Shown: piece after piece, positions 7,339 through 56,876 of the stretch
Position numbering within the stretch: the stretch's first letter is position 1
How the letters are laid out: the number at the start of each line of letters is the position of its first letter
Assembly (NCBI GenBank): GCA_024636585.1
Contig: JAGXGS010000048.1
Span: 1-64,000 of the forward strand
Reading direction: 5' to 3'
From: Thiogranum sp.
GTDB lineage: Bacteria; Pseudomonadota; Gammaproteobacteria; DSM-19610
DNA: 64,000 nucleotides
The notes under the pieces: generated by a model
The model's input: only the letters and a program-made list of their open reading frames with translations
Database searches by the model: none
Told to the model about the DNA's origin: nothing
Position numbers and translations under genes: made by a program

Positions 7339-10014
7339 TCAGGCAGACTTCAGCATCTCACGCACCACATAATGCAGGATGCCGCCGTGGATGAAATACA
7401 CCGCCTCGTTAGCGGTATCGATCCGCGATTTCAGCTCACAGCTTGCGGTGGAACCGTCCTTGTAGGTTACCGCCATCGTCAAGGTCTGACCCGGCTTTAT
7501 CTCGCCGGACAATCCATTGATGGTGATTGTTTCCTCTCCTGTCAGCTTCAGGCTCTTACGATCCGTGCCTTCAGGGAACTGCAGAGGCATAACGCCCATA
7601 CCAATCAGGTTGGAACGGTGAATCCGCTCATAGGACTCCGCCACCACGGCCCGGACACCCAGCAACCGCGTGCCCTTGGCTGCCCAGTCGCGACTGGAGC
7701 CGGTTCCATACTCTTTACCGGCAATCACGACCAGGGGTGTTCCCTGTTCCTGGTACTTCATGGCGGCATCGTAGATGGCCATCTGTTCTCCGGTGGGCAC
7801 AAACTTCGTGAAACCACCTTCAACGTTCTCCAGCATTTCATTACGGATACGAACGTTGGCAAAGGTGCCACGCATCATCACCTCATGATTGCCGCGGCGT
7901 GAGCCCAAAGAATTGAAATCCGCCGGCTGCACGCCATGGGCAGTCAGGTACTGGCCTGCCGGGCTATCCGGTTTAATTGCTCCGGCCGGAGAGATGTGAT
8001 CGGTAGTGACGGAATCGCCCAGCAGCGCCAGAACCCTGGCTGCCCGAATATCGCTGACCGGCTCGGGCTGCCTGGTCATGCCTTCAAAGTATGGCGGATT
8101 GCGAATATAGGTCGAATCGCCCTGCCATCCAAACAGCTGGCTTTCGGGAGAGGCGAGGCTGGTCCAGCGATTCTCGCCCTTGAAAATGTCCGCGTAGACT
8201 TCCGTGAATTCCTCACGTTTTACGCTGCTGGCGACAATGTCATTGATTTCTTTCTGGGTCGGCCAGATGTCTCTCAGGAACAGATCTTTACCATTGGCAT
8301 CCTGGCCGATGCTATCGTTGTACAGGTCGATGTTCATGGTGCCGGCAATAGCATAGGCGACCACCAGCGGTGGCGATGCCAGATAATTCATGCGCACTTC
8401 GGCATGGACGCGGCCTTCGAAGTTTCGGTTGCCCGACAGTACGGCACAGGCCGAGAGATTGCCTTCAGTGATGGCCCCGGATACAGCCTCCGGCAGCGGG
8501 CCGGAATTGCCGATGCAGGTCGCACATCCATAGCCTACGATGTGAAATCCCAGTGTTTCCAGGTCGTCCATGAGGCCGGCTTCTTCCAGATATCGGGTCA
8601 CCACCTGGGAGCCGGGGGCAAGGGATGTCTTTACCCAGGGTTTGACCTGCAGGCCGAGCCGGGCAGCCTTCTTCGCAACCAGACCTGCGCCCAGCATGAC
8701 CGAGGGATTGGAAGTATTGGTGCAGGACGTGATGGATGCGATTACCACCGCGCCATCATCGAGTGTGAAGGTCTTGCCGTCGATTGAACCAGTCGCCGGT
8801 TTGCTGCTTAAATTGCGTTCGGTTTTCAGCGACGACAGGGCTTCCTGGAACAGGCGCTTCGAGTCGGTCAGCGGCACGCGATCCTGCGGGCGTTTAGGCC
8901 CGGCCAGGCTCGGCACCACCGTGGAAAGGTCGAGCTCGATCGTGCTGCTGTATTCGGCATCCGGTTGATCGGCGCTACGGAACATGCCCTGTGCCCGGGC
9001 ATAGGCTTCAGCCAGCGCGATCTGTTCTTCACTGCGTCCCGACAGGCGCAGGTATTTCAGTGTTTCGGAGTCGATCGGAAAGATGCCACAGGTCGCCCCG
9101 TATTCCGGCGCCATATTGGCAATCGTGGCGCGATCGGCCAGTGACAGGTGATCGAGCCCGTTGCCGAAGAATTCCACGAACTTTCCGACCACGCCATGTT
9201 TGCGCAGCATTTCCACGACTGTCAACACCAGATCGGTGGCGGTCGCACCTTCCGGAATCTGCCCGTTCAGCTCGAAGCCGACCACCTGGGGGATCAGCAT
9301 CGATACCGGTTGTCCCAGCATCGCCGCTTCGGCTTCAATTCCACCGACGCCCCAGCCGAGTACGCCGAGTCCGTTGATCATGGTCGTGTGCGAATCGGTG
9401 CCGACCAGAGTATCCGGGTAGGCTTGCAGAACGTCATTATTCTCCATGCCCATCACCACCCGGCCCAGATATTCCAGATTGACCTGGTGCACGATACCGG
9501 TATCCGGTGGCACGACCTTGAAGTTCGAAAATGCCTTTTGTCCCCACTTCAGGAAACTGTAGCGTTCCTCGTTGCGCTGGTATTCGATCTTCGCGTTCAG
9601 GTCCAGTGCGTTCTTGCTGCCGAAGGCATCGATCTGCACCGAGTGATCGATAACCAGTTCAGCCGGTTGCAACGGATTGATCTTCTCCGGATCGCCACCC
9701 AGCGCCTGCATTGCGTCCCGCATGGCGGCCAGATCGACTATTGCAGGTACGCCGGTAAAATCCTGCATCAGCACCCGGGCCGGGCGGAATGCGATTTCCT
9801 GGACAGGCTCGGTATCCGGCGACCAGTTGATCAGCGCTTCGATATCGCCGATCGTAACTGTTTTGCCGTCTTCATGGCGCAGCAGGTTTTCGAGCAACAC
9901 TTTGAGCGAGTAGGGCAGCCTGGAAACATCGCTGGCGAGTGCCGGCAGACGGTAGATTTCATAGGTGCGGTCGCCAACGTTGAGCGTCGCCCGGGTCGAA
10001 AAACTGTTGCTCAT
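7339..10014 (-). CDS. acnA: Aconitate hydratase A
   Basis: 891 residues, the full length of the AcnA/IRP-type family. It interconverts citrate and isocitrate in the TCA cycle in the cytoplasm. The [4Fe-4S] ligands are visible as Cys431 in [11 protein letters not shown] and Cys497/Cys500 in [11 protein letters not shown]. The catalytic Ser/Arg region [12 protein letters not shown] is in the C-terminal swivel domain, and [13 protein letters not shown] is near residue 205. The start is supported by AGGAG six bases upstream of the ATG. It appears monocistronic: a candidate promoter lies upstream and a strong hairpin lies downstream. It does not resemble AcnB, whose domain order differs. Confidence 0.97.
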
Positions 10015-46393: not shown

Positions 46394-48199
46394 TCAGTGA
46401 TTGCGGTACATCTCTGTAATAGCTGCTTCGAATCGGTGCACGATAGTCTCACGTTTAAGTTTCAATGTCGGTGTCACCAGACCATCTTCAATGGTCCATG
46501 GATCGATCGTGCAATGAACTGCGTGGATCCGTGCATAGCCAGGGAAAGATGAAATTTGCGTTGCAATTTTTTCCAGAACCATCTCTTTGATGCGAGCGCT
46601 GTTGCAGGCGTTTTCGGTATCCGGATCAAGACCTGCCTGTTCGGCCAGCGTGAGCAAAAGCTCAGGATTCAGGACTGCTAACGCAGACAGGAAAGGCCTG
46701 CCGTCTCCCACGAGCAGAACCTGCTCAAACAGAGGGTCACCAGCGATCGTTGTTTCCATATCTGCCGGAGGTATCTTTTCTCCATTTGAGAGCACGATTA
46801 TTTCTTTCAGCCGCCCCGTTATATAGAGCTGACCGCCATCGATACGCGCCTTGTCACCAGTGTGTAGCCAGCCATCGGCATCTATCATGTCGCCTGTGGC
46901 AGTTTCGTTCGCCCAGTATCCAAGCATCACGCCCGGACCACGTACCAGTAACTCCCCACGTTCGCTGATTTGAGCTTCAATACCGTTCAGCATAACGCCC
47001 ACACCTTTCGGATCGTTATTTTTAATCGGATTAACACTGATTACCGGGCTGGTTTCGGTTAATCCGTAGCCCTGAATCATTGGTAAACCCAGCGCCAGAA
47101 AGAGTCGGGCGACATCAAACGGTAATGGTGCGCCACCGACGACCGCCAGGTTCATCCTGCCTCCCAGTTTCTTCAAAACTTTTTGCGCTACCAGCAGATT
47201 GAATAATGGCCAGAACAACAGCTTCGGATGCCAGGATGCGCGTTTTTGTTGATGCTCGAATCGATGCCAGCCGATGTCGACAGAGATATTGAATAATGCG
47301 CGTGCGAGTGAAGATTTCTCTGTCAGCCCTGACTGAATCTTGTTGTAAATTCGTTCGAAGATCCGTGGCACTGCGATCATTATCGTAGGACGAACAGCAA
47401 TGAGATCATCGGCGAGCTGAGGAATAGATCGGTTATATGCCACTGCCGCACCCGCCATCATAGGCAAATAGTAACCCGCAGTGCGTTCGAGGGTATGCGA
47501 CAGGGGCAGGAAGGAAAGGAAGATTTCATCGGATGCACAGCTAACCAGCTGCAGACTCGCATAGGCATTTGAGAGAATATTATCGTGGCTCAGCATGACG
47601 CCTTTGGGGCGGCCCGTGGTGCCGGATGTGTAGACGATAGAGGCGAGCGAATTTTTATCCCATGAAGATGGCATGAGTTCTGCGCGATCAGGCAGCCATT
47701 CGCCAACGGTCTTTAGGCGAACATCCCGATGTGTGGCGGTATCTATATGCCATACAGTGATAATGCTCGTCAGAAATCCCAGCTGATCGACAACAGGCTG
47801 AATGCTGTCCCAGTGTTCCTGTCCACCCAGAAGCAGCAGTTTTACGCCCGCGTCCTGGAGAATGTATGCAATATTTTCAGCGCGATCCTGGGCATACAGC
47901 GGCACCACTACCAGGCCATTAGCCAGCGCTGCCTGATCGAACATCGCCCACTCCGGACAATTCTGCATGATTACCGCGACACGATCGCCACGCTGCAATT
48001 CTTCACCTGCGAGTGCAGCTTGCCAGCGTGCGACCTGGCGGCTCATGTCGGCCCACGAAAGGTCGCGCCACATATCGCAGCTTTCATCATAGTGCCGATA
48101 GGCCAGCTGGTCAGGGGTGCGCTGAACACGTGCATAGAACAGCCCATCAAGCGTTTTGGCATCGTCTGGTGTAATCAGGTGGCGTGGCCTGTCTGTCAT
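46394..48199 (-). CDS. Long-chain acyl-CoA synthetase (AMP-forming)
   Basis: 601 residues from the ATG in the TGATG overlap with fadJ. It activates fatty acids to acyl-CoA through acyl-AMP. ANL motifs: the P-loop-like VYTSGTTGRPKGVMLSHDN, GYGLTETSPVIS, WLHTGDKARIDG and GRLKEIIVLSNGEKIPPADME with the catalytic Lys nearby. It belongs to the FAA1/FadD15-type group rather than classical E. coli FadD (shorter). It is the last gene of the fadE-fadI-fadJ operon. Confidence 0.92.
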   Translation of the reverse strand: MTDRPRHLITPDDAKTLDGLFYARVQRTPDQLAYRHYDESCDMWRDLSWADMSRQVARWQAALAGEELQRGDRVAVIMQNCPEWAMFDQAALANGLVVVPLYAQDRAENIAYILQDAGVKLLLLGGQEHWDSIQPVVDQLGFLTSIITVWHIDTATHRDVRLKTVGEWLPDRAELMPSSWDKNSLASIVYTSGTTGRPKGVMLSHDNILSNAYASLQLVSCASDEIFLSFLPLSHTLERTAGYYLPMMAGAAVAYNRSIPQLADDLIAVRPTIMIAVPRIFERIYNKIQSGLTEKSSLARALFNISVDIGWHRFEHQQKRASWHPKLLFWPLFNLLVAQKVLKKLGGRMNLAVVGGAPLPFDVARLFLALGLPMIQGYGLTETSPVISVNPIKNNDPKGVGVMLNGIEAQISERGELLVRGPGVMLGYWANETATGDMIDADGWLHTGDKARIDGGQLYITGRLKEIIVLSNGEKIPPADMETTIAGDPLFEQVLLVGDGRPFLSALAVLNPELLLTLAEQAGLDPDTENACNSARIKEMVLEKIATQISSFPGYARIHAVHCTIDPWTIEDGLVTPTLKLKRETIVHRFEAAITEMYRNH

Positions 48200-50274
48200 C
48201 AGGCGCCTTTCTCCGGGGTTGCGTTTTTGCCAAAACCCGCTACGAATTCCCATCCCGGATCCGGCTTGAAACGAGGCCCGAACTGTTGCTCCAGATTATG
48301 CAGGCGCTGCAACAGGACATCGGCACCGACGGTCTCGATGTACTTTAGCGGCCCGCCGAGAAAGGGAGCAAATCCAGCTCCATAGATCATGCCGGCATCG
48401 AGATGATCCGCAGTGCCGACGACTTTTTCGCGCAGACAGGAAACCACCTCGTTCAAAAGTATCAATATCATGCGATCGGTGTTTTCGGTATTCGTATGGT
48501 AGGTTTTCGGAAGCCTGGCTTTCTCTGGTTTTCCTTTTTTGTATCGGTAGAAACCGGCACCGGTTTTTCGACCCAGGCGGCCCTGTTCAACCAGATCGCT
48601 GAGCCGTTTTGGAACATCGACGTTAAAGTGACCAGAGAGAATTTGTGCCACGTGAAGGCAGACATCCAGACCGACGGCATCGGCCAGCTCAATCGGCCCC
48701 ATGGGCATTCCAAAGCCGACAGCTTGCCGATCGATGTCGGTCGGAGGAACACCTTCGCTTTCCAGTCTTACTGCCTCCAGCAAGTAAGGCATAAGGATCC
48801 GGTTGACGAGAAATCCCGGCGTGCTGCTGACTGGCAACGGAAGACGATCAATTGCACGTGTAAAGGCAATCGCTTTATCAATGGCATCCGTTGTGGTGCT
48901 GCCGTCATGAACGATCTCAACCAGCTTCATTTTCGCGACCGGGTTGAAAAAATGGATCCCGACCAGACGACCAGGATCCTGCAATATTGAGCTGAGTTCA
49001 CACAGAGGAATGCTTGATGTATTGGTTGCCAGAATAGCGTCTTTACGCATCAGCGGATCAAGCTCTGCGAAAAGACTACGTTTTGCCTCTACCTCCTCGA
49101 AAATGGCCTCAATTACCACGTCGGCTCGTTTTACGCCGATTCCCCTGTGATCAGGCGTCAATCTGTCCATTGCTTCCTGAATCAAACGGGGGCGCTTGAG
49201 CTTGCGCTCAAAGAGCTTGACGGAGCGTTTCACGGCGGGAGCCAGTCGTTCGGGCGACTGGTCCTGCAAAGTGACGTGCAGACCGCTGAGGGCACACCAT
49301 GCCGCTATATCCCCGCCCATAATGCCGGCGCCGATCACGTGCACGTGGACCGGCCTGGTGCTGGCGCGGCGTCCCAATGCTTTTAATTGCTTCTGCAGCA
49401 GAAACACGCGTATGAGATTCTGGGCTGTTGCACCAATAATAAGATCTGCGACAGATTCCGCCTCGGCATGCATCATGGCGCGTGGATCATCTGCATGTTT
49501 TTCCCACAGTTCAATCAATGCAAAGGGCGCAGGATAATGTTCCCGCCGGACCTTTTTACCCGTCTGGTAATAAAGCAGTTTCGCCAGTGTGGGGCGCACC
49601 CATGTTTGGTTGCTGAGAGACCGGAATCCATGACGTCGCTTCTTCAATGGCGGATCAAGAATCATTGCACGTGCGGCAGTTTTCAGATGCCGCTCCGGTA
49701 CCACGTGATCGACTATCCTTTTGCGCTTCGCCGCGCGAGCGTCCAGGGTCCGACCAGTGAGCATCAGGTCCATTGCTGCCAGCGCACCAGCCAGCGCAGT
49801 GAGTCGTACTGTTCCCCCGAATCCCGGGTGAATGCCCAGCAGCACTTCCGGCAATCCAAGACGCGTGGCAGGATCATCCCGAGCAATACGATAGCGGCAC
49901 GCCAGAGCCAGCTCGAGTCCTCCTCCCAGGCAGAAACCGTGAATCAACGCGACAGTGGGGAAGGACAGGGCGGCGAGCCGGTCAAGCACCTCCTGACCTC
50001 TTTGAATAGCCGCCAGGGCATGATCCCGATTTTGCAGATGGGTAAACTCGTGGACGTCGGCGCCGGCAATAAATCCATTTTCCTTGTCAGAGAGGATCAC
50101 AAGGCCACGCGGATTACGCCGCGCAATCTCAAGTATCTCCTTATAGAAGGCATCCAGCAGTGATGCATTCAGGGTGTTCGTGCCCGAGTCGTATTTATTG
50201 ATATGCAGCCAGGCGATGTTTTCCTCATCGACTTCAGTGTAGAGATCCTGTGTCTCAAAATCTGCGCTCATCAT
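48199..50274 (-). CDS. fadJ: Fatty oxidation multifunctional protein (FadJ/FadB type)
   Basis: 691 residues. The N-terminal crotonase domain (about 1-190) has the two catalytic Glu in GGGLELALA and GLPEVLLG, plus HPGFGGTVRL. The C-terminal 3-hydroxyacyl-CoA dehydrogenase starts at VHVIGAGIMGGDIA; its catalytic His is in GIHFFNPVAKMKLVEI. It hydrates enoyl-CoA and oxidises the hydroxyacyl-CoA. The chosen ATG overlaps the fadI stop by four bases; the frame opens to 50322 with a GTG. The subgroup (FadJ or FadB) cannot be fixed from context, as fadI, not fadA, is upstream. Confidence 0.93.
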   Translation of the reverse strand: MMSADFETQDLYTEVDEENIAWLHINKYDSGTNTLNASLLDAFYKEILEIARRNPRGLVILSDKENGFIAGADVHEFTHLQNRDHALAAIQRGQEVLDRLAALSFPTVALIHGFCLGGGLELALACRYRIARDDPATRLGLPEVLLGIHPGFGGTVRLTALAGALAAMDLMLTGRTLDARAAKRKRIVDHVVPERHLKTAARAMILDPPLKKRRHGFRSLSNQTWVRPTLAKLLYYQTGKKVRREHYPAPFALIELWEKHADDPRAMMHAEAESVADLIIGATAQNLIRVFLLQKQLKALGRRASTRPVHVHVIGAGIMGGDIAAWCALSGLHVTLQDQSPERLAPAVKRSVKLFERKLKRPRLIQEAMDRLTPDHRGIGVKRADVVIEAIFEEVEAKRSLFAELDPLMRKDAILATNTSSIPLCELSSILQDPGRLVGIHFFNPVAKMKLVEIVHDGSTTTDAIDKAIAFTRAIDRLPLPVSSTPGFLVNRILMPYLLEAVRLESEGVPPTDIDRQAVGFGMPMGPIELADAVGLDVCLHVAQILSGHFNVDVPKRLSDLVEQGRLGRKTGAGFYRYKKGKPEKARLPKTYHTNTENTDRMILILLNEVVSCLREKVVGTADHLDAGMIYGAGFAPFLGGPLKYIETVGADVLLQRLHNLEQQFGPRFKPDPGWEFVAGFGKNATPEKGA

Positions 50275-51581
50275 TCCATCCTGTCCAGAAGCATTGCACC
50301 GCCCTGACCGCCGCCTATGCACAAAGCGGCGACGCCGCGCTGCCGACCGGTTCTCTGCAGGGTCTTTACCAGGTGCAGAACAATCCTTACACCGCTGGCG
50401 CCGACCGGGTGACCAATGGAAACACCGCCACCATCGACGTTCAGGGATTGCTCATCAATTGCTGAAAACGGCTTCTCCAGCCCCAGAGAGACCCGACAGA
50501 ACTCTTCATCCTGCCAGGCCGCCAGACATGCCTGAACCTGCGCTGCAAAGGCTTCATTGATTTCCCAGAAATCAACGTCTCCGGAATCCAGATTATTGCG
50601 TTGCATGATGGGCGCGGTTGCATACACCGGTCCCAGACCCATTCGGCCGGGATCAAGTCCTGCCCATTGACTGTCTTTTATCTGCGCGAGAACCTGCAGA
50701 TCGTGTTTTGCGACTGCATCTTCCGAAGCCAGCAGGAGCCAGGCTGCGCCGTCAGTTACCTGTGCGCTGTTTCCCGCCGTTACTTTGCCGAACGGGGCAT
50801 CAAAAACCGGTCTGAGCTTTGCCAGCTTCTCCATACTCGAGTCGCCACGCAGCCCGGTGTCCGAATCGAAATAGCTGCCATCGACTCCGTAAACCGGCTC
50901 TATCTCATCGAGGTAACCCTGTTCGCAGGCATGCGCCAGACGCTGGTGGCTGCGTAACGCAAACATGTCCATATGCTCACGGCTGATAGCGAACTGATGA
51001 GCCAGGATCTCCGCCGTCTGGCCCATGCTCAGACCGGTGGTCGGATCGGTTAGTCCCCGTAACAGCCCGACCACAGGTTTTAGGAAGCGGGGCCTGAATC
51101 GGCTAAAAGCCCGCAGTCTGGCGACCGGACCGCGTGCGGTCCTGATCAGGCTCAACCACTCGACCATCGACTCGTCAAACAAGATCGGCGCGTGGCTCAT
51201 GGCTTCGACGCCGCCGGCAAGGATCAAATCGGACCGGCCGCTGGCAATCTCCTGGGCCGCGCTGTCCAGTGCCTGCATACCCGATGCGCAATTGCGCTGT
51301 ACTGTCCACGCGGGCACCTGTTCACCGCAGCCCAGTCGCAAGGCCACAATCCGGGCGATGTTCGCTTCATCGGGACCGGGCATGACACAACCGATTATCA
51401 CCTGATCGATTTCCGCCGCGCGGAACGGCTGGCGGTAGAGCAGGGCACGACCTGACTGTAACGCCAGGTCAGACGCCCGAAGAGGACCTGGTTTGCCGGC
51501 CGCACGTAGAAACGGCGTTCGACAACCATCCACTACATAGACTGGTTTGCCCGTTGCGAGGGGGTTGGGCTTTTCGGCCAT
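50271..51581 (-). CDS. fadI: 3-ketoacyl-CoA thiolase (FadI type)
   Basis: 436 residues, length and order as FadI. It releases acetyl-CoA from 3-ketoacyl-CoA. The nucleophilic Cys is in TVQRNCASGMQALDSAAQ, the His in SIGHPVGASGVRI and the second Cys in ALCIGGGQGGAMLL. AAGGAG lies upstream of the ATG, so the 49-base overlap with the end of fadE is genuine. It forms an alpha-beta complex with the next gene product. Confidence 0.95.
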   Translation of the reverse strand: MAEKPNPLATGKPVYVVDGCRTPFLRAAGKPGPLRASDLALQSGRALLYRQPFRAAEIDQVIIGCVMPGPDEANIARIVALRLGCGEQVPAWTVQRNCASGMQALDSAAQEIASGRSDLILAGGVEAMSHAPILFDESMVEWLSLIRTARGPVARLRAFSRFRPRFLKPVVGLLRGLTDPTTGLSMGQTAEILAHQFAISREHMDMFALRSHQRLAHACEQGYLDEIEPVYGVDGSYFDSDTGLRGDSSMEKLAKLRPVFDAPFGKVTAGNSAQVTDGAAWLLLASEDAVAKHDLQVLAQIKDSQWAGLDPGRMGLGPVYATAPIMQRNNLDSGDVDFWEINEAFAAQVQACLAAWQDEEFCRVSLGLEKPFSAIDEQSLNVDGGGVSIGHPVGASGVRIVLHLVKTLQRTGRQRGVAALCIGGGQGGAMLLDRME

Positions 51582-54007
51582 GAATCACGCTTCTCCTTCC
51601 AGTAGTCGGCGGGGAAATCGTCGACACTAATTACTTGTTGTCTGGCTGCAGTGGCAGCTTCCACCAGCGCAGCCTCGCGTTTATCTATTATGCCGATCGA
51701 TATGGCATCCATCAGGTGCTGCTCTGGATCTCCGGCAGTCAGTTCACCATTGCGCATGGCATTTCGCAAGCGTGCAATGATGGGGACGGCAGCCGTGTCC
51801 TTCTCGAAAGCTTCCTCAATTTGTGCAAGTGCATCACTGTTGTCATTCGATATAAAAACACCATCAGTAAGCCGGTCACGGGCGCTGCCATAGCGAAGAA
51901 TGACGCGTGCGCATCGCTGTAACAACAGATCCGAAGGTGTGCGATAGCTCGAACCCCATGGGAAAAGAGTCCGTTTCAATACCCGGCCTGCGAGACGGTG
52001 AGGCAAGTTGTCGAATACCTCCATGAGGCGCTGCTCCGACTGATGAAGCGCATCAGTCACGGTCCACTCCAGGAGTGGTCGATCAGCCGTCGGCCGCTGC
52101 TGGTCTGAAAATCGCTTCAACGCGGCCGAGGCAATATACATGAGGCTAAGAATATCTCCGAGTCGCGCAGATAGCGCTTCACGGCGCTTCAGCGAACTGC
52201 CCAGGGTCATCAACGCGACCTCAGACGTTACAGCAAAGGCAGCGCTGAGGCGGGTGAGTTGACGATAATAGGAAGATTCTTCGAAATCTATCGGCGAGCG
52301 CACAAAACGCGCACCGGTTAAGCCGTGGAAACTGGCGCGGGCGAAATTGCTCGTTAAGAGACTGGCATGCTGAAAAATTGCGCTGTCGAAACGCGCGGTG
52401 TCATGTCGTCTGGCAGCCCGGATCTCCTCCATGAGATTTGGGTGACATCGTAAGGCACCCTGTCCAAAAATTATCAGACTGCGCGTGAGAATGTTTGCCC
52501 CTTCAACAGTTATGCTTATCGGAATTGCCTGATATATGCGCGCCAGATAATTTCTTGGCCCCATGCATATGCCTCGCCCACCATGTATATCCATTGCATC
52601 ATCTACGCATTTTCGCATGCGCTCGGTCAGATGATACTTCACGATAGCGGATGCAACCGCGGGCTTTTCGCCGGAGTCAATCGCGAGCGTGGTCAGACCA
52701 CGTGCGGCATCCATTGAGTAGGTGTTTCCGGCGATGCGTCCCAGCACCTCAGCGACACCCTCGAAATTACCAATTGGCGATTTGAACTGGCGACGAATAG
52801 CCGCATAGGCTCCAGTCGCGCGCGATGCGAGCTTGCCGGCACCGGTGCTGAGGGCGGGAAGCGATATCGATCTTCCGTCGGCAAGACACTCCATCAGCAT
52901 GCGCCAGCCGTGACCGATACGCGCCTGTCCGCCGATAATCCACTCCAGGGGAATAAATACATCGCAGCCCTGGTTGGGACCATTCATGAACGCCTGGTTG
53001 AGAGGGAAGTGACGCCTTCCTATGGTGATTCCAGGTGTCTCTGTCGGTATCAGCGCCAGTGTAATGCCCAGCTCCTCCTGGCTTCCAAGCAGATGATCGG
53101 GATCGAAGAGCTTGAATGCCAGCCCCAGCACGGTCGCAACCGGCCCCAGTGTAATGTAGCGTTTATCCCAGTTAAGTCGAATGCCGAGTTGCTCGCGGCC
53201 GCCATACAGGCTGCGGCATACAACGCCTTTGTCAGGCATCGCAGCGGCGTCGCTTCCGGCTTCCGGTCCGGTCAGCGCAAAGCAGGGAATTTCCTCGCCG
53301 CTCGCAAGGCGGGGTAGATAATATTGTTTCTGCTCGTCGGTACCATAATGCAGTAATAGCTGGGCCGGCCCCAGCGAGTTTGGAACCATTGTTGTTACGG
53401 CAGCGGTGATGCTGCGGCTGGCAATCTTCATGACCACACTGGAATGCGCGTGAGCGGAGAATTCAAGGCCACCATACAGCTTCGGGATGATCATTCCGAA
53501 GAAGCGTTCACGCTTGAGAAAGTCCCACACCGGCGCCGGTAGATCATGCAATTCCTGAGTGATCGTCCAGTCGTCGATCATGTCGCAGAGTTCATCAACG
53601 GGACCATCCAGAAATGCCTGTTCTGCTTCACTGAGCGAGGGAGCTGGATAAGCGAGCAGTTTGCTCCAGTCCGGATTGCCACTGAACAGATCTGTTTCCC
53701 ACCAGGTGCTCCCGGCTTCCAGCGCCTCTCGTTCAGTCTCTGACATCGATGGCATCATTTTGCGGAAGCGATCCAGCAGCGGCGCACTGATTATCTGCTG
53801 TCGCAGTTGCGGCACCGAAATGACGGCAGCCGACGGAATCAGCAGCAACCAGACCGGAGTGAGGAGCCAGGGATTCATACTATGCAGGATCGGCCATACG
53901 AGCAGGCTGATGGCGAATATGCCAGACCAGGCCCAGGCAGGCGCGCGGCAGGCAGCGAGAATCCATACGCCTGCCATTGCGAGAAGTAGTTCCAGAAGGA
54001 TCACCAT
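51533..54007 (-). CDS. fadE: Membrane acyl-CoA dehydrogenase FadE
   Basis: 824 residues, the long FadE type. Two N-terminal hydrophobic segments (about 2-20 and 25-65) anchor it. The dehydrogenase core has FALTGPEAGSDAAAMPD, GNTYSMDAARGLTT, DAMDIHGGRGICMGPRN and EGANILTRSLIIFGQGALRCHP. The C-terminal 300 residues are the DUF1974 extension typical of FadE. It performs the first, FAD-dependent step of beta-oxidation. GGAG seven bases upstream supports the start. The gene begins 14 bp after the hydrolase stop and overlaps fadI. Confidence 0.95.
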   Translation of the reverse strand: MVILLELLLAMAGVWILAACRAPAWAWSGIFAISLLVWPILHSMNPWLLTPVWLLLIPSAAVISVPQLRQQIISAPLLDRFRKMMPSMSETEREALEAGSTWWETDLFSGNPDWSKLLAYPAPSLSEAEQAFLDGPVDELCDMIDDWTITQELHDLPAPVWDFLKRERFFGMIIPKLYGGLEFSAHAHSSVVMKIASRSITAAVTTMVPNSLGPAQLLLHYGTDEQKQYYLPRLASGEEIPCFALTGPEAGSDAAAMPDKGVVCRSLYGGREQLGIRLNWDKRYITLGPVATVLGLAFKLFDPDHLLGSQEELGITLALIPTETPGITIGRRHFPLNQAFMNGPNQGCDVFIPLEWIIGGQARIGHGWRMLMECLADGRSISLPALSTGAGKLASRATGAYAAIRRQFKSPIGNFEGVAEVLGRIAGNTYSMDAARGLTTLAIDSGEKPAVASAIVKYHLTERMRKCVDDAMDIHGGRGICMGPRNYLARIYQAIPISITVEGANILTRSLIIFGQGALRCHPNLMEEIRAARRHDTARFDSAIFQHASLLTSNFARASFHGLTGARFVRSPIDFEESSYYRQLTRLSAAFAVTSEVALMTLGSSLKRREALSARLGDILSLMYIASAALKRFSDQQRPTADRPLLEWTVTDALHQSEQRLMEVFDNLPHRLAGRVLKRTLFPWGSSYRTPSDLLLQRCARVILRYGSARDRLTDGVFISNDNSDALAQIEEAFEKDTAAVPIIARLRNAMRNGELTAGDPEQHLMDAISIGIIDKREAALVEAATAARQQVISVDDFPADYWKEKRDSWPKSPTPSQRANQSM

Positions 54008-54021
54008 GCTCTAACTCCAGG

Positions 54022-54945
54022 CTAATCGGGGACTTTTTCCGGAATCGCTGTTCCGAGGTCGGCCGGGCATTCCGGTGCTTCACGCACATCCCGGGCGGAG
54101 ACAGCGATCTGTCCCACATCCGGACCAAAGGAGGGCGTATAACAGTCGCCATGGGCGTTACAAATTCGTCCCTGCTCGTCCCAGGGAAGGTCGCGATAGG
54201 ATGCGTTCATCGAGAATTCCGTGTGTGGACACTTGATGATGTCGAAGTAGGGCGAATAGTCGAAATCTCGGGGCGTGAACAGACGCGTGTTGCGAGGAAT
54301 CAGACGCAGCGAGCCATCATGCAGTTTTTCGAGAACCGGCAGGACCGGGAATCTTACCGACGCAAATGCTGCAGCGATCATCGATGAACAGACGGAACGT
54401 GTCGGTGAACCGGCGTTGTGTTCGAAGAGGCTGGAACGCCATTGACGCGGAATGATGCTGTAAGGAAAGAGAAACCGCGCCAGATCCAGCAACTGGCGCA
54501 GGTCATACTCAAAGCCCAGATGCTGGAGTGCGAACTTCATGACCTGTTGTGCATCCTGCCGGGACAGGCCGCTCGGACGGCAGATGCGCAACGTATCGCA
54601 ATGATACTTTTCCAGTGGATTTACAATCGTGCCCTTGCCGAGCCAGGCTTCTATGACCAGCTGTTCGCGCGGGTCTCCGTCATAGAAAGAGCGAACTTTC
54701 GCGCACAGCTCCTCGTCATCGATGTCATGTATACGGCCGATGTACAGCGCTGAATGCGACCAGGGGCTCTGGGTGACGGTGCGGATGATTTCGGAAACGC
54801 GGCTACGGCCTTCGACCAGAATGACGTCTCCGGGCCGAACTTCGTAACGCAGTCGATCAAAGTCACAAAGCGGCGGCTGAACCGGCACGCGTTCAGTCGT
54901 AAGACAGCTAACAATCGCTTTGCCCAGCCATGCAGCAGGATTCAT
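54022..54945 (-). CDS. Permuted papain-like (YiiX/NlpC-P60-type) hydrolase
   Basis: 307 residues from the ATG at 54945, which has GGAGG ten bases upstream (a GTG at 54951 is too close). The N-terminal catalytic segment reads VRPGDVILVEGRSRVSEII followed by SPWSHSALYIG with the catalytic His; the Cys follows later in RSVCSSMIAAAF, the His-before-Cys order of circularly permuted papain-like enzymes (YiiX, YebB). No signal peptide is evident. The C-terminal 80 residues, rich in acidic residues and Pro, are less conserved. Substrate unknown. It is 14 bp upstream of fadE, same direction, so is the first gene of the beta-oxidation operon. Confidence 0.8.
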   Translation of the reverse strand: MNPAAWLGKAIVSCLTTERVPVQPPLCDFDRLRYEVRPGDVILVEGRSRVSEIIRTVTQSPWSHSALYIGRIHDIDDEELCAKVRSFYDGDPREQLVIEAWLGKGTIVNPLEKYHCDTLRICRPSGLSRQDAQQVMKFALQHLGFEYDLRQLLDLARFLFPYSIIPRQWRSSLFEHNAGSPTRSVCSSMIAAAFASVRFPVLPVLEKLHDGSLRLIPRNTRLFTPRDFDYSPYFDIIKCPHTEFSMNASYRDLPWDEQGRICNAHGDCYTPSFGPDVGQIAVSARDVREAPECPADLGTAIPEKVPD

Positions 54946-55116
54946 GACCACACAACCTCCGCCTCAGGTGAAGATTACTGGTCTGCTCGGGAACCGGTGC
55001 AACGTATCCGGGGCTACATCAAGGAGCAAATTCCAGGTCTTTACTGGATAGCGGCATTAGGGATAAAACTTTACTATTTAATAACTAAGGGTGGATTCTT
55101 GCGCCGGAGCCTGGGT

Positions 55117-56238
55117 CTAGGGCATGGCTTCAAAAGTCATGCGCAAAGCCCGATCAAGCGCTCGAGTGGGCGTGTAAAAGTGTGGTGAAAAGCGAATGCC
55201 GCCGCCTCGCAGCGCGCAGATTACGCCGTTATGCTGCAAATACTCATAACGGGCTGCTATATCGTCGTCAGCCGGTTTGAAGGTGACGATCCCGCAGCGC
55301 CGCCCAGCGTCTTTTGGCGAAATAATTTCGGCATTTTCATTCAATTTTTCAATAAGATATTCAATTTTTACAGAAATAAGATTAGAAACTTCCGAAATGC
55401 CCATATCAAGCAGCAGGCTCATACTGGCATGCAATGCGTGAATTCCGAGCATGTTGGGGCTCCCGCACTCGAAGCGACGCGCGGAAGCGGCAGGCTGCCA
55501 GTCCCTGCGTGAAAAATCGCCCATGACCTCGGTCATGTGCCAGCCATACTGTTTCAGTGACAGTCTTGAAATCCAGTCCCGCCGACAAAAGAACAACGCC
55601 AGACCTTCAGGGCCGAGCATCCACTTGTGGCCATCTGCGACAACGAAATCAGCCTGGCAGGCCTGAACATCGAAAGGTTTGGCACCCAGGCTTTGTATGG
55701 CATCGACACAGAAGGCTACATCGTGCTCGCGACAGGCACTGCCGATAGCGTTCAGATCCAGAGCCAAACCTGTGCCGTATTGGACTGAACTCACGGATAC
55801 CAATCGTGTCTCAGGATTAATTGCCGCGGCAATAGCGGACTCGGGGACATCATTCTGTCCGATATCCACTTCAATGACGCGAACTCCGAGCGGCTTGAGT
55901 GATTCCCAGACGATTCGGTTCGAAGGGAATTCCTGATTGGTGATGATGACCTCATCACCGGCGTTCCAGGACATACCATAGGCGATGACAGAAAGCGCTT
56001 CCGATGTATTTTTGACCAGGGCAATTTCATCGGTGCTCTGCGCATTGATCAGGCAACGCAGCTGTTCCCGCAATGCTTGCTCGACTTGCAGCCACTGGTC
56101 ATAGTGACGCGAGCCCTTGAGACCGTTCTCCTCGGCAAACTGGCTGACGGCTCTCACAGTACGCTGTGGCCACGGCGAAACAGCTGCATGATTGAGGTAA
56201 CAGAGCGTCTCGTCTAAAGTAAATTCGTTGTGATACAT
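55117..56238 (-). CDS. Class V aminotransferase-fold PLP enzyme
   Basis: 373 residues from the ATG at 56238. The fold is that of cysteine desulfurases, isopenicillin N epimerases and related lyases. PLP-binding features: NTSEALSVIAYGM, SVSSVQYGTGLALDL, FCVDAIQSLGAKP and the internal-aldimine Lys in VADGHKWMLGPEGLALFF. The persulfide Cys loop of IscS/SufS is not evident, so it is probably not an Fe-S desulfurase. Its start is 26 bp from the divergent unknown gene. The 54946-55116 gap to the hydrolase shows no gene or element I can support. Confidence 0.85.
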   Translation of the reverse strand: MYHNEFTLDETLCYLNHAAVSPWPQRTVRAVSQFAEENGLKGSRHYDQWLQVEQALREQLRCLINAQSTDEIALVKNTSEALSVIAYGMSWNAGDEVIITNQEFPSNRIVWESLKPLGVRVIEVDIGQNDVPESAIAAAINPETRLVSVSSVQYGTGLALDLNAIGSACREHDVAFCVDAIQSLGAKPFDVQACQADFVVADGHKWMLGPEGLALFFCRRDWISRLSLKQYGWHMTEVMGDFSRRDWQPAASARRFECGSPNMLGIHALHASMSLLLDMGISEVSNLISVKIEYLIEKLNENAEIISPKDAGRRCGIVTFKPADDDIAARYEYLQHNGVICALRGGGIRFSPHFYTPTRALDRALRMTFEAMP

Positions 56239-56264
56239 TTTGTTGTTTCGCTGAAAGGATTGAC

Positions 56265-56876
56265 ATGAATGAATCAGGATTAATACACCGCAGCCTTTGG
56301 CTCGTCGCATCGTTCTTGCTGGCCTGCGGCGGCGCCGCGGCCTCGACTACAGAAGGTGTAGCGGAGGAAACCGGCCTGCGCTACTGGGAGTGGCAGGATG
56401 ATGGCATTTTGTTTCGGCTTACTCAACGGCTTCCTGACCAGACGCGGGCTTTTTTCCTGGCGCGAGGATTCGATCGCGCCGATGCGGATTTTATCGCCAC
56501 CCAATGCGTTTTCCAGTCAATGTTCAAAAATACCGGGACATTGGATGGGGAGGTGGTGATCGACCTGGAAAACTGGGAAGTCAGGACCGGACAGGGTCAA
56601 TCCATGCTCATGACGCGCGATACCTGGCGCGCTGCACCCGAACTTCAGGATGCGCCTGCCGCGGCTATGATAGCACTGGAGTGGTCGTTATTGCCCACAC
56701 ATCAGACATACGAGCCGAACGACTATAACTGGGGAATGACGAGCTATGGTTTGCCTCCCGGGTCGACATTCGACCTTGAGTTTTCCTGGTCCCGCGAAGC
56801 CAGGCGTTTTTCCAGGGTCCTGACCGGAGTCGAGTGCCCCGCTGATATAGATCCGCAACCGGAGCAATCCGAATGA
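56265..56876 (+). CDS. Exported protein of unknown function
   Basis: 203 residues. The N-terminus (SLWLVASFLLACGGAAAS) is a signal peptide; LLAC could be a lipobox, but the AAAS after it also permits signal peptidase I. The mature part has WEWQDDGILFRLTQRLPDQT, ARGFDRADADFIATQCVFQS and ESWS-like aromatic strands; I do not recognise the family. AAAGGA five bases upstream of the ATG supports the start. It overlaps the TlpA-like gene by four bases, so it may be a client or partner of that thioredoxin; it has two Cys in the mature region (TQCVF, GVECPA). Confidence 0.75.
   Translation: MNESGLIHRSLWLVASFLLACGGAAASTTEGVAEETGLRYWEWQDDGILFRLTQRLPDQTRAFFLARGFDRADADFIATQCVFQSMFKNTGTLDGEVVIDLENWEVRTGQGQSMLMTRDTWRAAPELQDAPAAAMIALEWSLLPTHQTYEPNDYNWGMTSYGLPPGSTFDLEFSWSREARRFSRVLTGVECPADIDPQPEQSE

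Follow-up and report, generated by a model that had tools for sequence, protein, structure and literature searches.

What is the task of a putative cysteine hydrolase whose gene stands at the head of a fatty-acid beta-oxidation operon? This question is raised by a stretch of 64,000 nucleotides from Thiogranum sp. (assembly GCA_024636585.1, contig JAGXGS010000048.1, positions 1 to 64,000; the window), in which a gene for a permuted NlpC/P60, papain-like protein of the Peptidase_C92 family (C92; 54022..54951, minus strand; 309 amino acids, GTG start) precedes genes of the fadE, fadI and fadJ types and a gene for an acyl-coenzyme A (acyl-CoA) ligase. The position of C92 before fad genes suggests that the enzyme supplies or prepares fatty acids. 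The protein probably has a role in fatty-acid metabolism, with acyl-lipid bonds as its target; the tentatively favoured form of this reading, held with somewhat less than even confidence, is a cytosolic cysteine acyl hydrolase, or possibly an acyltransferase, that supplies fatty acids to the operon.

The association of C92 with fad genes recurs well beyond the window. A class set of 369 gammaproteobacterial genomes contained a C92 match in 140 and a FadE match (E 1e-150) in 219; both were present in 128 genomes, C92 only in 12, FadE only in 91 and neither in 138, corresponding to an odds ratio of 16 (Fisher p 6e-25, with genomes counted as independent and shared ancestry uncorrected). Among the matches listed, FadE lay directly downstream in at least 57 of 150 C92 rows. 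Gene order was assessed in 140 of the 142 C92 rows that span about 150 residues or more. These were fetched and their neighbours identified by tblastn, with fadE required on the same strand no more than 700 bp downstream and fadI or fadJ within 1.5 kb. These loci comprised 63 with fadE, ten with fadI and/or fadJ in the absence of fadE, 65 with neither and two at a contig edge. The link was concentrated in the 115 rows scoring at least 190 bits (fadE in 63, fadI/fadJ only in nine, neither in 41, contig ends in two), and only one of the 25 weaker rows, which represent distant homologues, was linked to fad genes, the other 24 being unlinked. Where 8.5 kb or more of downstream sequence was present, the fadE-linked loci (n = 59) encoded FadI in 56 cases, FadJ in 56, the ligase in 47 and all of them in 46, and the gap between C92 and FadE was -13 to 50 bp in 51 of the 63 loci (14 of them at -4), as measured on automatic gene calls. 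Similarly, a draw of 398 genomes from the phylum yielded a C92 match at E 1e-20 in 58, and FadE was adjacent in 19 of the 29 loci examined beyond the window's own. The ten remaining loci consisted of one at a contig edge, six of lowest identity and three others. Twenty-eight of the 29 share the phylum only, and the remaining one (G086) is of the same class and had been counted in the class set; 17 of the 19 were refetched, having been chosen for fadE, and all displayed it again. Closest to the window are ten relatives in named genome contigs, assigned to Thiogranum (five; Chromatiales in the NCBI taxonomy), Thiohalobacter (two) and Gammaproteobacteria bacterium (three). FadE adjoins C92 in all ten, and FadI, FadJ and the ligase are also present in eight; one contig (L006) stops within FadE. 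In L003 (CP070738 bin, 8952-9569), only FadE residues 1-206 lie beside C92, with no FadI or FadJ match after them, which may reflect either a broken gene or a broken assembly. Because gene order is conserved and the genes co-occur, the link between C92 and fad genes is beyond chance. An earlier inspection of this DNA from its letters alone (the sequence-only reading) had made recurrence with fad genes a test of its idea of an acyl-releasing enzyme, and this recurrence was found (63/140 and 19/29 loci, odds ratio 16).

The protein itself matches Peptidase_C92 (PF05708) with 45.6 bits against a curated cut-off of 27, the best stretch spanning positions 2-99 of the 166 in the profile. No further Pfam family, the LRAT family PF04970 included, was found in it at E 0.01 or better. 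It is the single PF05708 match in a genome that is 83% complete. Relatives are annotated as 'YiiX/YebB-like N1pC/P60 family cysteine hydrolase'. The YiiX-type enzyme with histidine before cysteine that the sequence-only reading had described was upheld as to family and catalytic order, but not as to orthology with YiiX: the YiiX model (PRK10030) scored 19.3 bits against a cut-off of 216 and the YaeF model (PRK11479) 24.6 against 279, and by these scores the protein is an orthologue of neither. In an alignment with E. coli YiiX (E 3.8e-5, probability 71%), His66 (54756-54754, minus strand, as for the following codons), Glu101 (54651-54649), Tyr149 (54507-54505) and Cys188 (54390-54388) fall on H49, E64, Y115 and C128, the residues named as catalytic by Xu et al. 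in the sections available of that paper (PMC3142127), and all four thus stand in the permuted order. Across 136 aligned rows, these columns were occupied by H in 135 (one gap), E in 134 (one D, one gap), Y in 136 and C in 135 (one gap). The interval between Tyr149 and Cys188 is 26 residues longer than in YiiX, and the added stretch is well conserved (about residues 150-178; 54418..54504, minus strand); a second conserved block of the relatives is C-terminal, around DFDxSPYF. A 66-row profile of relatives found PDB entry 3KW0 at E 5.6e-7; of the two aligned stretches, the one around His is significant alone and the one around Cys is not.

AlphaFold models of the protein reached a predicted local distance difference test (pLDDT) of 39.6 (11 rows) and 49.5 (12 shortened rows), the pocket region being poor in both. 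A PDB fold search with the latter, weak model nevertheless placed four 3KW0 chains first (E 5.4e-4 to 1.4e-3) and two chains of 2IF6 next (E about 0.03), the seventh match having E 1.7. VIA-align with the same weak model gave Z 8.4 for 3KW0, 7.0 for 8iuf_E7, 6.5 for 2IF6 and 5.4 for human HRASLS3. The 8iuf_E7 match and one to TraI (Z about 4) were set aside as reflecting a common arrangement. These modelled matches support, but do not prove, a permuted NlpC/P60 fold. A fusion of C92 to another enzyme was rejected: in L212, an open frame of 720 residues proved to be a run-on, FadE lying in another frame, and the genes in L240-L242 are separate.

As to cellular location, N-terminal hydropathy was expressed as the highest 19-residue mean within the first 35 residues, a crude measure used in place of a signal-peptide predictor. 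Its median over 132 C92 rows was 0.06, with two rows at 1.0 or above and none at 1.3 or above, compared with 1.31 for YiiX and 1.44 for YaeF as yardsticks. By hydropathy, no obvious export signal was seen in these 132 rows, and the family that they represent is probably cytosolic. The window protein displayed the highest value of all (1.16). The segment aligned with residues 5-19 had an amphipathicity of 0.39 versus 0.27 on average after shuffling, a level exceeded by 77% of the 132 rows. Contact of C92 with the membrane may be guessed at from this segment, and it stays a guess because the value of the window protein there is 0.29.

Since the probable place is cytosolic and the operon combines a ligase with beta-oxidation enzymes, an acyl hydrolase is the simplest reading, and we infer, as the sequence-only reading had suggested, that acyl groups are released or transferred by C92 for the operon. 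The enzyme, which may sit against the inner side of the membrane, would attack an acyl bond through Cys188; His66 and Glu101 would activate this cysteine, and Tyr149 would polarize the carbonyl. The substrate would be an acyl compound of the membrane or the cytosol (a phospholipid, lysolipid or N-acyl amino acid), and hydrolysis of the resulting acyl-cysteine would yield a free fatty acid. The ligase encoded in the operon would then turn this fatty acid into acyl-CoA, to be degraded by FadE, the FadJ-type subunit and the thiolase, so that C92 would constitute a supply or salvage step of the fatty-acid degradation unit. The chemistry has precedents in the literature, cited here from the available sections of each paper. 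Permuted NlpC/P60 enzymes possess a Cys/His pair and form an acyl-thioester intermediate (PMC7387801). In crystals of YiiX, a hydrophobic tunnel is occupied by a ligand that was modelled as a fatty acid and whose head group, near Cys128, is bonded to Tyr115; from bound ligands, Xu et al. proposed lipid amide cleavage for 3KW0 and YiiX (PMC3142127); a later paper gives this activity of 3KW0 as fact with a citation (PMC10318531), whereas the sections of Xu et al. put it forward as a proposal. Tox-Act1, a permuted NlpC/P60 protein, cleaves phosphatidylglycerol and phosphatidylethanolamine, and free fatty acids of the target cells rise (PMC12994826). LnsA and LnsB are needed together for lipoprotein N-acylation, with their separate roles unassigned in the part available (PMC7387801). 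A variant with a slim chance is an LRAT-like lipid:CoA transacylase, in which Cys188 would pass the acyl chain of a membrane lipid straight to coenzyme A. If true, acyl-CoA would reach a membrane-anchored FadE without a free fatty acid and without adenosine triphosphate (ATP), an ATP-sparing entry into beta-oxidation of which, to our knowledge, none has been described in bacteria.

The history of the neighbourhood bears on the hydrolase reading from both sides. In a FastTree phylogeny of 134 C92 rows, rooted at the midpoint, a clade of 20 rows contained none linked to fad genes, and the clade of the other 114 held 64 fadE-linked, eight fadI/fadJ-linked and 42 other rows. The fad-linked label changed 11 times on this tree against a mean of 44.7 after shuffling. 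Rows linked to fadI/fadJ only were scattered over more than one position, and the tie is therefore not to FadE alone. Several observations weigh against the hydrolase reading. Among the high-scoring loci, 41 of 115 have no fad neighbour, and 29 of the 42 unlinked rows of the larger clade form a single nested group that keeps C92 away from fad genes; C92 can therefore persist without the fad operon. Conversely, 91 of the 219 FadE genomes are without a C92 match. Where the genome has no C92, 17 of 20 FadE loci picked by hand had fadI and/or fadJ within the next four genes, so fad operons without C92 look otherwise intact and C92 is dispensable to them. No replacement gene recurs in its place in these 20 loci except a class-V aminotransferase (5/20), and an opposite-strand gene is common to three closely related genomes among them. 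C92 thus looks like an optional gene before a standing fad unit. Regulation gives no help either: FadR_C has no match in this 83%-complete genome, and no shared palindrome or fad-type operator stood out in 71 upstream stretches, the recurring words being only such as TGCCGCTA and CCGCTATC. Given its hydropathy, a cytosolic location is less certain for the window protein than for its relatives. Finally, the pocket models are unusable at these pLDDT values, and activity and substrate are putative.

Some of these observations would be explained if the gene order were inherited without a shared pathway, C92 having a lipid or other task of its own. Such an explanation agrees with the 29-row clade, with the adenylosuccinate lyase gene (purB) beside C92 in 15 of 135 loci, with the existence of fad operons lacking C92 and with co-occurrence statistics that ignore shared ancestry. 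It is nonetheless considered unlikely, as the label changes so rarely on the tree (11 against 44.7) while the link spans more than one class, the gaps to FadE are often short (51/63 between -13 and 50 bp), and the loci with fadI or fadJ in the absence of fadE tie C92 to the pathway rather than to any single gene. Those same loci, ten of the 73 linked ones, speak against the idea that C92 modifies a protein of the operon, for instance by deacylating or acylating membrane-bound FadE and thereby steering its location or maturation, as do the 91 FadE genomes without C92. This idea draws on the direct adjacency of FadE in the other 63 of the 73 loci, on the hydrophobic N-terminus of FadE and on LnsA, which is YiiX-like by HHpred and required for lipoprotein N-acylation according to the available part of PMC7387801; it is regarded as quite improbable.

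Two further proposals concern the bond that is cleaved. As a cysteine thioesterase with acyl-CoA or acylated proteins as substrates, C92 would free coenzyme A or clear dead-end acyl chains during beta-oxidation, without any new supply of fatty acids. The acyl-thioester intermediates formed by this fold (PMC7387801, available sections) and a setting rich in acyl-CoA are compatible with it, and the 4HBT hotdog thioesterase that ends the operon in 9 of 135 loci indicates that such an activity is at home there, but the two enzymes would be redundant where both occur, and the most similar structures suggest lipid amides or esters as substrates, not CoA; only a modest chance, well below even, is given to this proposal. 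A peptidoglycan amidase like the canonical NlpC/P60 enzymes, by contrast, is very improbable, because the relatives are without an obvious export signal, none of 132 rows reaching the N-terminal hydropathy of YiiX or YaeF, and because the protein matches the branch with hydrophobic pockets (3KW0, YiiX). Permuted members have hydrophobic S1 sites, the pocket being built by the loops that connect the core elements, according to the available sections of PMC3142127, and the fad setting is unfitting for such an amidase. Superfamily kinship and the canonical NlpC/P60 chains found by VIA-align at Z 3.4-4.8 speak for it.

The operon in the window consists of five genes, all on the minus strand. The stop of C92 is separated by 14 bp from the ATG of the FadE-type acyl-CoA dehydrogenase (51533..54007; 824 amino acids; ACDH_C 318 bits, PRK09463 1119 bits with a cut-off of 600), as the sequence-only reading had stated and the coordinates of the open reading frames (ORFs) bear out. 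The N-terminus of this dehydrogenase is hydrophobic, with a maximal hydropathy of 2.47 in the first 70 residues. It is followed by a FadI-type thiolase (50271..51581; 436 amino acids; Thiolase_N 215 bits, PRK08170 715.6 bits with a cut-off of 593), a FadJ/FadB-type enoyl-CoA hydratase and 3-hydroxyacyl-CoA dehydrogenase (48199..50322; 707 amino acids; 3HCDH_N 160 bits, 3HCDH, ECH_1) and an acyl-CoA ligase of the type that forms adenosine monophosphate (AMP) (ORF 46394..48253; AMP-binding 253 bits). The thiolase lies below the cut-off of the FadI equivalog models and the multifunctional protein below that of the FadJ model (538 bits, cut-off 869), and both are therefore named by type only (NCBIfam). 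The chain of overlaps described earlier exists, at 49 bp between the FadE and FadI ORFs, at 52 bp between FadI and FadJ, and as a single base where the likely ligase start (MTDRPRHL..., ATG at 48199) meets the FadJ stop (TGATG). The span of 48199-54945 given with that description needs amendment at both ends, since it omits the ligase that it describes and since relatives in the genus favour GTG 54951 over ATG 54945 as the C92 start. Upstream, a TGCCGCTATCC-like word recurs before C92 in the genus relatives, the window copy lying within 54952-55090. In the window, it stands 11 bases after TAAAGTTT, a first half not seen at the other loci, and the pair recalls a sigma-28 type promoter.

Farther upstream lies a gene for a class-V aminotransferase (55117..56310, minus strand; PF00266), whose membership in the unit is uncertain; such a gene is a same-strand neighbour in 30 of 135 C92 loci and precedes fadE in 5 of the 20 loci without C92. 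The purB gene was found upstream of C92 (15/135 loci; for example L090, 994-2370) among fad-unlinked rows in all cases compared by eye, and the 4HBT gene follows the ligase at position +5 (9/135 loci; for example L156, 12027-12443). A second setting of the family is plasmid-borne: C92 relatives with about 39-40% identity lie beside arsS and arsenosugar-type genes on plasmids of Acinetobacter portensis (L206, 4977-5732) and Burkholderia glumae (L208, 4908-5735). Scans of IMG/VR for more relatives yielded one true homologue (L260, 1868-2602; IMGVR_UViG_3300035698_007038), a protein of 244 residues that is 40% identical over 28-242. Two other candidates (L261 and L262) were dropped, their matches lying inside longer ORFs, presumably of phage terminase as judged by eye from reading alone.

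The C92 family, its fold and the idea of an action on lipids are already known. A tie between C92 and beta-oxidation was not met in a search of the full-text literature, whose coverage excludes most subscription journals. What bacterial C92 proteins act on has mostly been guessed from bound ligands, and a branch without an obvious export signal that stands repeatedly before beta-oxidation genes in Pseudomonadota offers a pathway context for the family. If the enzyme does release or transfer acyl chains for oxidation by FadE, many environmental bacteria have a lipid-deacylating step built into their fatty-acid degradation unit, one that is missing beside the fad genes of E. coli.

Among known systems, BcPPNE of Bacillus cereus (3KW0) is the best match in solved structures, both by sequence (E 5.6e-7) and by fold (E 5.4e-4, Z 8.4), with its His region aligned to the window protein and its Cys region weakly so; it is much shorter (214 residues) and was crystallised with lysine, and cleavage of lipoamino acids was proposed for it by Xu et al. 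(PMC3142127, available sections). YiiX of E. coli (2IF6) shares the four catalytic residues and a fold match at E 0.03, but has a hydrophobic N-terminus (1.31), lacks the 26-residue insert and is encoded between rpmE and metJ, away from fad genes. Similarly, YaeF of E. coli displays a weak N-terminal profile match (24.6 bits, far below the cut-off of 279), but has a hydrophobic N-terminus (1.44) and a gene located between nlpE and proS. The LRAT/HRASLS proteins, which are lipid acyl hydrolases or transferases according to the available part of PMC7387801, belong to the same permuted fold class, human HRASLS3 (4DOT) reaching Z 5.4 with the weak model, which is not proof of kinship; they are eukaryotic, and the window protein has no PF04970 match at E 0.01. 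Tox-Act1 and LnsA are permuted NlpC/P60 proteins as well, kin to C92 by their descriptions, but they represent other families, Tox-Act1 being a secreted effector and LnsA part of a two-component envelope system. Finally, the operon resembles the known FadE-FadI-FadJ-ligase arrangement for beta-oxidation, with the same enzymes in a single-strand run, to which the window adds C92 in front.

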